The notes under the pieces were generated by a model. It had not been told where the DNA came from and ran no database searches. It saw only the letters and a program-made list of their open reading frames with translations. From positions 1 through 47,318 of the IMG/VR virus record IMGVR_UViG_3300010885_008910: DNA of 47,318 nucleotides; one strand, 5' to 3'. Origin of the DNA: a virus. Shown piece after piece: positions 34,918 through 41,622 of this stretch. The first letter of the stretch is position 1; each line of letters opens with the position of its first letter. The translations under genes were made by a program, and so were the position numbers.

Positions 34918-34925
34918 TATTTATG
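34918..34925 (-). promoter_or_regulatory. Late-type promoter box, leaderless spacing
   Basis: CATAAATA, 5 nt, ATG (34912). Confidence 0.45.
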
Positions 34926-35538
34926 CATTTTTACTTGGTAGCAAACTAGTATATCTGTTTGATTTGATGCGATTATCGATAGTCCACAGCGGTTGTAGAT
35001 TGGAATACCGACTTAGTGTTAGGATTTCTGTTTCAGATTTAGCCCAAGATAACGGAATAATATGGTCAATTTCCCATAAATGCATGTTCTCCCATGACAT
35101 ACCGCTATTAAACTGTTTTTCTATATGGGTATAAAAATCATCAAAAGAACATCCTAATATTTCAATAGTTTTTGATTTTTTCGATAACTTGCCATTAACA
35201 AGGGCCCGTCGAATATTCTGCCTAACTCTTTTCTTTAAAGCAAATAACGGATCTGATTTTAATTTATTTGTCTGATAGTTGCGCTGATATTCTCGATATT
35301 CAACAATGTTTCGTTCCCGCCATGGTGTGCCAGAGTTATCTTGCGATCTATATTTTGCTCTTTCGCTAATATCTTTGTTAGGATTTGCTCTTAGCCAGCA
35401 TTTGGCATTCTCTTGTTCTTTATTTTTTTCGTAGTATGCTTTCCTATACACACTTTTACAGGATTTACACTGACTTTTGCCTTTTACAAAATCGCTTAAG
35501 GATTTTGATATACCGCATGAGCTACATGATTTATTCAT
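34921..35538 (-). CDS. HNH endonuclease with zinc ribbon
   Basis: 205 residues. The N-terminal C4-type zinc region (CSSCGISK...CKSCKS) is followed by a basic helical linker and the HNH core WEIDHIIPLS...YSNLQPLWTIDNRIKS, with the DH and the N residue in place. Such free-standing enzymes in T4-like phages are usually homing endonucleases. It lies between two oppositely transcribed regions. AATAAATA ends 5 nt before the ATG, a likely leaderless late start. Confidence 0.88.
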   Translation of the reverse strand: MNKSCSSCGISKSLSDFVKGKSQCKSCKSVYRKAYYEKNKEQENAKCWLRANPNKDISERAKYRSQDNSGTPWRERNIVEYREYQRNYQTNKLKSDPLFALKKRVRQNIRRALVNGKLSKKSKTIEILGCSFDDFYTHIEKQFNSGMSWENMHLWEIDHIIPLSWAKSETEILTLSRYSNLQPLWTIDNRIKSNRYTSLLPSKNA

Positions 35539-35611: not shown

Positions 35612-35989
35612 ATGAACGAAGAAATATTCGCTAAACTAACTGACAAATACCCGTTTATAACGCTGTGTTTGTACGCTTCCCAGGAATATGTGGGGATCAT
35701 ACAAAATCGTGATGATGCTATTACAACTATCTACGATTTTGGCAGTATTAACGATATAGATAATAAGAAACAATTCCTAGAATTAGCTAATATTTGGTGG
35801 TGGGAAAGTAATCGTTCTATCCCTATTAACATCTTTTTAAAGCAAGAATGGGATCCGTTTAAGGCTACACTTCGTACCTTTATCAACAAGGATCTTGAGA
35901 TTTTACACGGCCCAGTCTGTAGTTTAGCCGATATGGCCCGCAAGAAAAGCAAGCGAAAATCCATTACCTTAGTTAGGCGGATGGAGTAG
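35612..35989 (+). CDS. Conserved T4-like phage protein, only plus-strand gene
   Basis: 125 residues, soluble, with IWWWESNRSIPINIFLKQEWDPF in the middle and a basic C-terminus (RKKSKRKSITLVRRME). A similar protein occurs in T4-like cyanophages with unknown function. It is convergent with the DnaE-like gene, overlapping it by 17 bases. No clear Shine-Dalgarno is seen. The alternative minus-strand ORF over the same bases is short and unlike known proteins. Confidence 0.75.
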   Translation: MNEEIFAKLTDKYPFITLCLYASQEYVGIIQNRDDAITTIYDFGSINDIDNKKQFLELANIWWWESNRSIPINIFLKQEWDPFKATLRTFINKDLEILHGPVCSLADMARKKSKRKSITLVRRME

Positions 35990-36578
35990 TTTCGTCGAGT
36001 AAATTCATATGTAAGGCTACTAACATTGAGTAGCTAAGACTGTGAGATTTTTTAAAAGTAAATCCTTTACTATCATCACCATCCCATACAGTTTCAAATA
36101 CTTCTTTCCAAGATTTATTTTGTAAGTGAGCTTTGCCTGGACGAATAATTGCAATAAAGGCTGCCATTCTTGGAATACTATCTGGCTTCATTGTTCTTAG
36201 TAAATGTATAGAGCCACCAACGTGAACTATTTTGCTGGCGAACGTATGGTCAGTCCATAATCGTTCCCACGGAGGCTCTTTTGCTAACATTTCTTTATAG
36301 TGATCAGGCGACTTAACTAGTTCATAAACACTCATGTTAAGCAAGTCAATCTTAAAGTAGCCACGTTTTTCTGCTTCTTTATAATCTATTGCGGCGCATT
36401 TATTGACAGGATCATAGGGAATATCTGTTACATATACACCAGAGTTATGATGTTGACCCTCACGACCTGCTCTCTCTCTTGCGTTAATACCAAACTTTGT
36501 TAGCCGTGCTGGCGTAGCATTAATAAGTTTTAATACTTGTTCCCTATCAGCTAAGTCTAAATCAATGTCTGCGCTCAT
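35973..36578 (-). CDS. Miniature C-family DNA polymerase (DnaE)-like protein
   Basis: 201 residues. ADIDLDLADREQVL (3-16) matches the DnaE palm motif PDxDxDF..R..V with the two catalytic acids (D6, D8). HNSGVY (44-49) matches the H-xGG-V stretch. FKIDLL (75-80) supplies the third acid D78 as in KFDFLGL. MKPDSIPRMAAFIAIIRPGK (130-149) matches the LxPxxFxDxIALxxxxRPGP segment, and FKKSHSLSY (175-183) matches FNKSHSAAY. Motif order is that of DnaE, but PHP, most of the fingers and the OB domain are absent. Its activity is unknown. It follows gp62 and the zinc-finger gene. Confidence 0.75.
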   Translation of the reverse strand: MSADIDLDLADREQVLKLINATPARLTKFGINARERAGREGQHHNSGVYVTDIPYDPVNKCAAIDYKEAEKRGYFKIDLLNMSVYELVKSPDHYKEMLAKEPPWERLWTDHTFASKIVHVGGSIHLLRTMKPDSIPRMAAFIAIIRPGKAHLQNKSWKEVFETVWDGDDSKGFTFKKSHSLSYSMLVALHMNLLDETTPSA

Positions 36579-36579
36579 A

Positions 36580-37305
36580 TTACCATCCTGCCGCCTTCAA
36601 TAGTTCTTGTGCTTCGATCCTATTAGCTGGATCCTCTTTTAACTTCTTTGTCCAAATATCTGGATCAATATAAGGCCAAATCATTGCTCTATGTTCAGAG
36701 GATATATCAGTTAAAAACTGTTGTCCTGAATTACAGTTGTATAGTACCCACGGACTAATTCTACCTGTAGTAATTGCGTAGACTATTGCGTTGTGATTTC
36801 CGTAGCGTAAGTAGTCTTGTGATTGACTTTCTTTTTCTTCAGCCCAGTCAATAGCGTGTTCAATAGCACGAGTTAACGCATCTTCCATGCGTTCTACTTT
36901 TAAATAAAATAACAAATATTCTTCGTAAACGCTATCCTTAGTCCAGTAATCTATTTTCTTATTTTGTTTTAGCACCCACTCTGTAAAGCGGGCTGGGTTA
37001 ATTGCCTTAACGCTTACACAATAACGGCCAAATTTTACAAAGGCTTTATAGTATGCGCTTTCACAAAAGTCATCATATGTTTTTAACTTAGCAGAGCCTT
37101 GTGTCATTTCATAAAATTTAATATATGCGTGGAAGCCTAATCTAACACCAGCTTCTTCTTTTTCTTGGCGACGTTTGCGTGGTTCACAGGAATGTATTGC
37201 TAAACTGGACTCTTTGACAAAGTCTTTCTTACAGTATTGACAAGTATATTTCATATCAGCTTTAGTAAATGTGCCTAACTTAGCTATCGCATTAGCATCA
37301 ATCAT
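36580..37305 (-). CDS. Zinc-finger phage protein of unknown function
   Basis: 241 residues. A C2H2/C2HC-like finger (YTCQYCKKDFVKESSLAIHSC, about 20-40) is followed by a long helical domain. Closely similar proteins are conserved in T4-like cyanophages near replication genes. Possible roles are DNA binding in replication or late transcription. It lies between gp62 and the DnaE-like gene and touches both. Confidence 0.8.
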   Translation of the reverse strand: MIDANAIAKLGTFTKADMKYTCQYCKKDFVKESSLAIHSCEPRKRRQEKEEAGVRLGFHAYIKFYEMTQGSAKLKTYDDFCESAYYKAFVKFGRYCVSVKAINPARFTEWVLKQNKKIDYWTKDSVYEEYLLFYLKVERMEDALTRAIEHAIDWAEEKESQSQDYLRYGNHNAIVYAITTGRISPWVLYNCNSGQQFLTDISSEHRAMIWPYIDPDIWTKKLKEDPANRIEAQELLKAAGW

Positions 37306-37763
37306 TTCTTGGATTCTTGCCCTAGTGCTTTTAAGTAAGCATCTACATCTTTTTTAGTATTAAGTTGCGACATTAATTCTATCTCATCGTCTTTCATATG
37401 TGGATATAACTCCATTAATTGCTTTTTAATAGTGCCTGCTCCAGGCTCTTTTTTCTTTGTGCTAATCCAGTTATGCCTCTGTATGCCTATATCAGGACTT
37501 ACAGTAGTGGATACTAGCCACTGTAGTTTTTTGTGATTGCGCTCAGCTGATCCTGGGATGGAAAAGAACTTTTTGTTTAAGCGTTCGTTAGTTGCTATTA
37601 GATAAAAATGCTGTAAATCAGTTGAGCCAGATACGCTACTACCCCAGCGAATCATTAAAAACGGAGCAAACTTTTTCTTTTCATCTTCAGAAAGTTCGTC
37701 ATAAAAATCGCGATTCTTTTTATCAAATTGCGCCATTTCATTACGAATATCTAACTTGTCCAT
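37302..37763 (-). CDS. 62: Sliding-clamp loader small subunit (gp62-like)
   Basis: 153 residues resembling cyanophage gp62: APFLMIRWGSSVSGS, YLIATNERLNKKFF, KKLQWLVSTTVSPDIGIQRHNWI. In T4 gp62 joins four gp44 subunits to load the clamp gp45. Neither gp44 nor gp45 is in this window. The assignment depends on remembered family resemblance, without a catalytic motif. It overlaps both neighbours. Confidence 0.65.
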   Translation of the reverse strand: MDKLDIRNEMAQFDKKNRDFYDELSEDEKKKFAPFLMIRWGSSVSGSTDLQHFYLIATNERLNKKFFSIPGSAERNHKKLQWLVSTTVSPDIGIQRHNWISTKKKEPGAGTIKKQLMELYPHMKDDEIELMSQLNTKKDVDAYLKALGQESKK

Positions 37764-38263
37764 TAAAATGCCTTGTTGTAATCCACTACTTCACAGTTAC
37801 GACTAATATCTTTAACAAAATAAACACACTCAGGTTCCTTGCCGTCACCTAGCGGTACGCATAACATTTGTCCATTTTTAAGTTTAGGGGCAAACCAAGC
37901 TACGTCTTGATACACATCAAGTATTTCTACATCAAGAAAACTAGGTCTAAAACTGTGTAACGGATTAAATTGAAACGCTTTGAATCCTCTGTCATTTAGT
38001 GCTGACAGCGGAATAACTTCTAAGTCGCCAAAGTCTGGCTCGCCAATAAGCAATTGCCAATCTACAGGCATACGAACACGATGTTCACCGATGCGTAGCA
38101 CAAGTGCTGGCGCATTAAATGACTCTAAGAAGATCAGCGGAATGTAATGATAGTCTGGATCTTGTGGATTACTATTATCTAATATAGCAAATCGCATATC
38201 ATCTATCTCTTCAGGTAAATGATCAAGCTCATATGGCTCATTGTCTAAAGTTAATATTTTCAT
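37763..38263 (-). CDS. Conserved T4-like phage protein of unknown function
   Basis: 166 residues, acidic, with PEEIDDMRFAILDN, VRMPVDWQLLIGEPDFGDLEVIPL and FRPSFLDVEILDVYQD. Similar proteins occur next to gp62 in cyanophages. Function unknown, probably in replication or its control. TATAAT ends 6 nt before the ATG and no Shine-Dalgarno is seen, so the mRNA is predicted to be leaderless. Confidence 0.78.
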   Translation of the reverse strand: MKILTLDNEPYELDHLPEEIDDMRFAILDNSNPQDPDYHYIPLIFLESFNAPALVLRIGEHRVRMPVDWQLLIGEPDFGDLEVIPLSALNDRGFKAFQFNPLHSFRPSFLDVEILDVYQDVAWFAPKLKNGQMLCVPLGDGKEPECVYFVKDISRNCEVVDYNKAF

Positions 38264-40394: not shown

Positions 40395-40610
40395 CTACAA
40401 ATTTCTTAAATATGGTGGAATATCTTCGTCTGTAATGGGTAAGCCAAAATGTTCTTTAATAATCAAATTCCAAGCTCGTCCCTTACCGTAAATGTTATAA
40501 CTATAAGCAAGTTCAGCGCATTCTTTAATAATCAGCTCGGCAAACAAGTCCAACCCTTCTTGGTCTGGATTGTCTTGAATGCCTGCTTGTTCTTTTAGTC
40601 GATTAAACAT
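40395..40610 (-). CDS. Small conserved phage protein of unknown function
   Basis: 71 residues, acidic, helical, with LFAELIIKECAELAY and HFGLPI, a small family common in T4-like phages. Its start overlaps the stop of the AAA+ gene by 8 bases. Function unknown. Confidence 0.78.
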   Translation of the reverse strand: MFNRLKEQAGIQDNPDQEGLDLFAELIIKECAELAYSYNIYGKGRAWNLIIKEHFGLPITDEDIPPYLRNL

Positions 40611-41622
40611 TTTTCATACAAGTGCTAACAGCCAATGCCTTCCAATTTTCTTCGGAAACTTTGGTCAAGTCGGCAAGTTTAAGTGCCATACGCAAGGACA
40701 TTTCACGCAATTTGTGTTGGTTAGCGTCCATAAACTGTAAAATTTCTTCGCCCTTTTCTGGACTAAAATCATAGTCTTTAAACAGTTGACCTTGGCGGAA
40801 AATTTGTTTAATACGCAAGAACTTGTCACGCATTGTATTAAGTGTAAGGTCTAAGAAGTGACAACGTGACTGTAATGCTTCTAGGTGATCCTTCATTTTC
40901 TTAGACTGAATGTTTTCAAACTTAAGGTTAGTAATAAAAATAGCGCCACCCTTAAAGTCAAATTGATCAGGAACTCCTTCACGTCGTAACATAGCACTAT
41001 CTGAATTCCAAAAAATCTTACGTTTTTTACCGCTATCTAGAGCAGCCTTAAGAATGTTTAAGGATAGTTCGTCTTGGAATACCGAGTCACAGTCGTCAAA
41101 CACAAGAACGTTATTAGCGTCGGAGTGCCTGTAAAGTGTACAGTATAGACCAATAGGAGTCATCGCACCTTTAACTACTTCGTACTTGATCTTCTTGCCT
41201 GAGATTTTGTCAAAGAGACCTGACTTTTCAAGTTCAAACTCTACTCCATAACTCTTACCTACACCTGGAGGACCTACTACAATCATTGCACGAACATCGC
41301 CTGCGATAGTAGCACGTGTCATCTGATGTAGTATTTCAAAACGTTCTTCAATACGATTCATTACTTCATCGTCAGTTTCAACTTGGGGTTGAATTTTTAC
41401 TACAGGTTCTGCTGTAGCAATATTACTAGCCGCAATTTCAACATCTTCAATGCCGTTAACACGAACACGGACTTCATCATAGTCTGGGCCAAAATAGCCA
41501 TCTGATTTTACAGTCACATAGCCTCCTTTGGCTCCAGTTTGATAATCTTTAACAAGTGTGAATGCAACATTGTTAACTGGCATATTGCGATACACACCAC
41601 TTTTAATTAATACTTTTGACAT
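40603..41622 (-). CDS. AAA+ ATPase of unknown role
   Basis: 339 residues. An N-terminal small beta domain (about 1-65) is followed by an AAA+ motor: Walker A VGPPGVGKS (116-124), Walker B VLVFDDCDS, a sensor-1 ITN and a helical lid. It is not a gp44 clamp loader by layout. Similar ATPases occur in many myoviruses without a fixed function. Good Shine-Dalgarno (AGGAG). It is driven by 41657-41685. Confidence 0.85.
   Translation of the reverse strand: MSKVLIKSGVYRNMPVNNVAFTLVKDYQTGAKGGYVTVKSDGYFGPDYDEVRVRVNGIEDVEIAASNIATAEPVVKIQPQVETDDEVMNRIEERFEILHQMTRATIAGDVRAMIVVGPPGVGKSYGVEFELEKSGLFDKISGKKIKYEVVKGAMTPIGLYCTLYRHSDANNVLVFDDCDSVFQDELSLNILKAALDSGKKRKIFWNSDSAMLRREGVPDQFDFKGGAIFITNLKFENIQSKKMKDHLEALQSRCHFLDLTLNTMRDKFLRIKQIFRQGQLFKDYDFSPEKGEEILQFMDANQHKLREMSLRMALKLADLTKVSEENWKALAVSTCMKNV

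Follow-up and report, generated by a model that had tools for sequence, protein, structure and literature searches.

The 201-amino-acid protein encoded on the minus strand at positions 35973 to 36578 of the window, by which is meant the whole 47-kb fragment analysed (47,318 nucleotides; IMGVR_UViG_3300010885_008910), is likely to be the C-terminal half of a stripped-down, two-gene C-family DNA polymerase, acting together with the product of a second phage gene family, phrog_11127, as a dNTP-using accessory enzyme. The gene has an ATG start and an AGGA-type ribosome site, and begins directly past the stop of the gene upstream. Its principal features, numbered by residue of the 201-aa product, were as follows.

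35973 to 36578, minus strand: the DnaE-like gene (phrog_11778, 201 aa), putative C-terminal half ('B') of a split minimal Pol III alpha palm, assigned from profile, alignment and model
36555 to 36569, minus strand: DIDLD, residues 4-8; D4 aligns with E. coli D401, D6 with D403 (metal ligands) and D8 with D405, all invariant in 69 relatives
36462 to 36488, minus strand: nine-residue insert INARERAGR, residues 31-39, a gap in 97% of weighted relatives
36432 to 36449, minus strand: HNSGVY, residues 44-49, equivalent to HAGGVV at E. coli 511-516; H44 and G47 invariant
36339 to 36356, minus strand: FKIDLL, residues 75-80; K76 aligns with E. coli K553 and D78 with D555 (third metal ligand), both invariant
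36132 to 36155, minus strand: IAIIRPGK, residues 142-149, an RPGP-type fingers motif aligned by hhalign to E. coli up to 642; I145, R146, P147 and K149 invariant
36030 to 36056, minus strand: FKKSHSLSY, residues 175-183, the O-helix motif; H179 aligns with the E. coli H760 steric gate, and F175, K176 and H179 are invariant

The original prediction, made from the sequence alone, had placed a 201-residue open reading frame carrying five DnaE motifs in DnaE order at exactly this position, and both position (minus strand) and order were confirmed. The protein gave a full-length match to phrog_11778, a family labelled 'DNA polymerase' (E = 1.8e-53), and also matched the full-length phage DnaE profile phrog_405 (E = 1.8e-7), while hhalign of the family profile against nine bacterial, plasmid and phage DnaE sequences aligned residues 40-149 with DnaE 507-642 at a probability of 96.7%; judged by these profiles, the likeness to DnaE is far beyond chance. 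A direct PDB sequence search with the 201-aa protein returned only spurious armadillo-repeat matches, so that the case for homology is built on profiles and fold, and the Pfam fingers model alone fell below the cut-off (E = 0.2). The AlphaFold2 model (mean pLDDT 89.9, pTM 0.82) matched, among PDB entries at a Foldseek probability of at least 0.8, no chains but those of DNA polymerase III alpha from Thermus, M. tuberculosis and E. coli, with TM-scores by query length of up to 0.60 and a modest best E-value of 5.7e-4; against a viral library the matches were mostly phage DnaE proteins. The structural check proposed at the outset thereby bore out a Pol III alpha palm for the fold of this model, and on profile and modelling evidence the protein is a reduced C-family palm.

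Residue-level comparison was based on a family alignment of 69 sequences with identities down to 31%. The catalytic acids of E. coli DnaE are D401, D403 and D555, and H760 is its proposed steric gate excluding ribonucleotides (PMC8485763). Since the E. coli motifs PDFDVDF and KFDF start at 400 and 553 respectively (FRPGP at 638 and FNKSH at 756), the three palm carboxylates present in the phage protein are D4, D6 and D78. Of the acids named originally (D6, D8 and D78), the last was correctly identified, while the first two were displaced by one motif position, D8 being the counterpart of D405. The stretch from D8 to H44 spans 36 residues as against 106 in E. coli DnaE. Within it lies the nine-residue insert, which on the alignment is nearly unique to the window copy and which forms a low-confidence stretch of the AlphaFold2 model. 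The dN/dS of the gene, calculated against relatives with estimable dS, was 0.08-0.13, a range that indicates purifying selection.

Compared with contig L003, the DnaE-like gene is clearly more diverged (79% amino acid identity) than the adjoining genes (89-97%), and L003 has 375 nt inserted immediately upstream of this gene. Because an HNH/endonuclease VII-like gene (34921-35538 in the window) lies close to the DnaE-like gene in both, homing-linked exchange at this locus is possible.

The PHP domain, thumb, full fingers and OB fold are without matching sequence in the 201-aa protein, as had been noted for all but the thumb. The GS triphosphate-binding loop (GRGS) is likewise missing from this chain, and it is this missing part of the palm that is the key to the identity of the protein. 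In a C-family palm a GS loop is required ahead of the aspartates, which are where the phrog_11778 protein begins. The earlier description of a reduced C-family palm thus stands as regards fold, but not as regards a self-contained domain, the protein corresponding to the C-terminal half only and the N-terminal half, with its GRGS loop, to a separate gene.

A DnaE-profile search of ten genomes or records, the window included, picked out, in every near-complete genome, an additional short open reading frame that matched the GS region only, and the clear matches in near-complete relatives were these two pieces alone. The second piece, phrog_11127, comprises proteins of about 150-215 aa (typically about 170 aa) that match Pfam DNA_pol3_alpha (E = 4e-9), contain an invariant GxGRGSS, and end almost directly after a conserved YNLDIKEF(L/I). 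Its profile maps to E. coli DnaE 318-392 and the phrog_11778 protein resumes at ~401; as the partner covers 318-392 and the other piece starts at the equivalent of D401, the two are complementary and non-overlapping. The best fold match of the partner model (pLDDT 79) was also Pol III alpha, again with a modest Foldseek E-value (2.4e-2).

Neither phrog_11127 nor a B-family polymerase was found in the 47-kb window. However, the 344-kb relative G001, whose phrog_11778 copy is about 71-74% identical to that of the window, has both halves plus a B-family polymerase, and from the relatives, chiefly G001, we infer that the window phage has them also; the partner should then be encoded outside the fragment. 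All nine near-complete relatives checked, G001 included, had a B-family polymerase, so that the presence of a C-family palm besides such an enzyme, as originally supposed, was confirmed in these phages.

Of the phage records bearing the partner (E <= 1e-8), 60 of 60 also carried phrog_11778, a family that itself occurs in 63 phage records and about 300 viral contigs. By organism counts three records had phrog_11778 only: one was a Klebsiella fragment of 109 kb, and the others were Alishewanella phages, of which the one checked, the 141-kb Slicko01, nevertheless had the partner by profile (E = 1.2e-18). Several points were counted against a split enzyme. The two genes are far apart, their spacing ranging from 11 kb in Slicko01 to >200 kb in Phosso; no natural fusion of the halves was found in 159 phrog_11778 loci (longest open frame 242 aa) or 60 partner loci; the Foldseek E-values are modest; and several large contigs, which may be fragments, have one half only.

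A long partner match in viral contig L232, considered as a fusion of the halves, proved to be an 859-aa open reading frame for an ordinary PHP-less single-chain phage DnaE with thumb and fingers kept. Equally, a DnaQ exonuclease was rejected as an obligate third subunit, being found in eight of 12 relatives and not in G001, Phosso, SCTP-2 or Slicko01. Among the matches listed from prokaryote species genomes only two were good, and both lay on short contigs binned in archaeal MAGs (L265 and L266; Natrialbaceae and Pacearchaeota); since these contigs have the same phage gene order, the copies are most likely phage, and the contigs are probably misbinned phage sequence.

It is unlikely, given the conservation of its residues, that the protein is a catalytically dead scaffold or regulator whose palm fold holds DNA, nucleotides or the B-family replisome, for instance as a sensor or a host-replisome decoy. 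The loss of the thumb and OB fold would suit such a role, as would the B-family polymerase already present in relatives, but the catalytic acids, K76, R146 and H179 are invariant down to 31% identity, the partner GRGS loop is invariant too, and a metal site and steric gate would be needless in a scaffold or decoy. The regulatory decoy entertained in the original prediction consequently fits poorly with invariant catalytic and dNTP-selecting residues; the invariance of the metal ligands and of the steric-gate histidine argues for a live dNTP-selecting enzyme and not for a decoy.

The DnaE-like gene lies within a conserved replication cluster, the neighbouring members of which in the window are listed below.

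35612 to 35989, plus strand: convergent gene for a 125-aa protein (phrog_11637), which shares 17 bp with the DnaE-like gene at the 3' end of the latter
36580 to 37305, minus strand: upstream gene for a 241-aa protein (phrog_11058) with a weak C2H2 zinc finger, a conserved neighbour
37302 to 37763, minus strand: gene for a 153-aa protein (phrog_11758), a probable gp62-like clamp-loader small subunit, assigned indirectly via the Slicko01 homologue
37763 to 38263, minus strand: gene for a 166-aa protein (phrog_11279), a conserved operon member by neighbourhood comparison

The order uvsX, uvsY-like, uvsW, phrog_11279, phrog_11758, phrog_11058, DnaE-like gene, phrog_11637, primase and helicase is conserved over a range of relatives, from freshwater-type contigs to RaK2, CBB, PA5oct and Phosso. 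In the 116 loci with enough flank, phrog_11058 (about 240 aa, the weak zinc finger being near the N-terminus) precedes the DnaE-like gene in 104, and the convergent phrog_11637 occupies the same position and orientation in 105, an arrangement that is unusually fixed. In Slicko01 the homologue of phrog_11758 comes after an RFC/gp44-like gene and has a match to the 'clamp loader' family phrog_225 (E = 3e-4), which suggests that phrog_11758 is probably the gp62 clamp-loader small subunit, a component reported missing in the CBB genome (PMC5259590). It had been stated that the DnaE-like gene adjoins gp62; the 241-aa zinc-finger-like gene in fact lies between the two, and the gp62 assignment is itself indirect. 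Also within the replication cluster, an AAA+ ATPase gene (phrog_1250, 40603-41622, minus strand) is located between uvsW and a methyltransferase-like gene.

Pol-beta-fold enzymes include many non-polymerase members. Next in order of probability, and improbable, is an active nucleotidyltransferase that has this palm but is not a template-directed DNA polymerase, with, for example, an end-tailing or a protein- or RNA-modifying function. Most of the template- and duplex-binding parts of DnaE are indeed missing, yet the steric-gate histidine and the fingers helix are kept, and the gene is situated in a replication cluster with primase and helicase. There is only a slender chance that the phrog_11778 protein is a minimal polymerase by itself and the GRGSS protein functionally unrelated to it: the chain has a confident fold on its own (pLDDT 89.9) and all three acids, but it is without the GS triphosphate-binding loop of C-family palms, and the missing piece is a complementary protein in the same genomes. 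That the gene is a decaying DnaE remnant, as its reduced length might suggest, can be dismissed, being already contradicted by conservation: the family recurs in 63 phage records and some 300 viral contigs, dN/dS is low and the order of the genes is fixed.

For the favoured two-gene polymerase, the analysis demonstrated homology, fold, the complementary cut, co-occurrence, residue conservation and a conserved operon; assembly, catalysis, substrate and role are what we infer. The phrog_11778 half would supply the RPG(K) loop, the steric-gate histidine on a shortened fingers helix and all three acids that bind metal, and the phrog_11127 half, from its distant locus, the N-terminal part of the palm with the GRGSS triphosphate-binding loop. 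The two halves are predicted to assemble into one active site that would add dNTPs to a primer end, beside the B-family replicase that the phage itself encodes. Given the loss of the thumb, PHP domain, most of the fingers and the OB fold, the enzyme is predicted to be weakly processive and to do an accessory job, and, as the thumb and most of the DNA-contacting fingers are gone, primer-template binding would need help, possibly through tethering of the enzyme via the clamp-loader or zinc-finger products of the operon. Its role may accordingly be to synthesize short stretches, as in gap filling, in repair, or in extending primers and handing them off. A more specific version can be offered only tentatively, in which the pair is a dedicated, dNTP-selective, thumbless polymerase with a two-chain active site that is recruited by the clamp-loader/zinc-finger operon, extends primers or fills gaps, and hands off to the B-family replicase, making it the smallest C-family polymerase and one side of a two-polymerase division of labour in the phage replisome. 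If active, this smallest C-family polymerase, encoded by two genes, would indicate how small a part of DnaE suffices for catalysis, and DNA synthesis in these phages would be shared between two unrelated polymerases.

A split minimal Pol III alpha is already known, and the window protein adds a member. The enzyme was described from sequence in group 2.2 jumbo phages in sections 3.4.1 and 3.5 of Iyer et al. 2021 (PMC7824862), where the same split-enzyme reading was reached and the enzyme was proposed as a model for the ancestral Pol III core; a C-family palm in the same jumbo-phage group is thus not the surprise that it had originally been taken to be. To the account given in those sections, the present analysis adds the position of the cut at residue level, the co-occurrence count, the occurrence in a 141-kb phage, the invariance of the steric gate and the fixed make-up of the operon. 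The CBB paper (PMC5259590) mentioned no more than a truncated Pol III alpha of 172 aa, by its size the N-terminal protein, and the Atu_ph07 paper (PMC6102473) reported that most Rak2-like phages conserve a Pol III alpha subunit. PHROG 11778 and PHROG 11127 are both labelled 'DNA polymerase', labels that are silent on their being halves of one palm. No report of an experimental test of the split enzyme was found in the literature searched.

Bacterial DnaE (E. coli, Thermus, M. tuberculosis) and PolC have in common with the split enzyme the palm fold, the three acids, the Lys553-type lysine, the RPG motif, and the O-helix FxKSH with its steric-gate histidine. By comparison with them, the split enzyme is without the PHP domain, thumb, most of the fingers, OB fold and tail, and its palm is distributed over two genes. 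The 859-aa phage DnaE is also a C-family protein without PHP, but is a single chain in which thumb and fingers are kept. Like the enzyme in the cited sections of Iyer et al., that considered here has a C-terminal Mg/template-binding unit and, in relatives, a distant N-terminal NTP-binding unit and a B-family polymerase, the other DnaE domains being absent. Unlike the lineages treated there, the window copy, whose partner would lie outside the window, belongs to a freshwater-type clade, is about 31-44% identical to the other aligned lineages and carries a private nine-residue insert.
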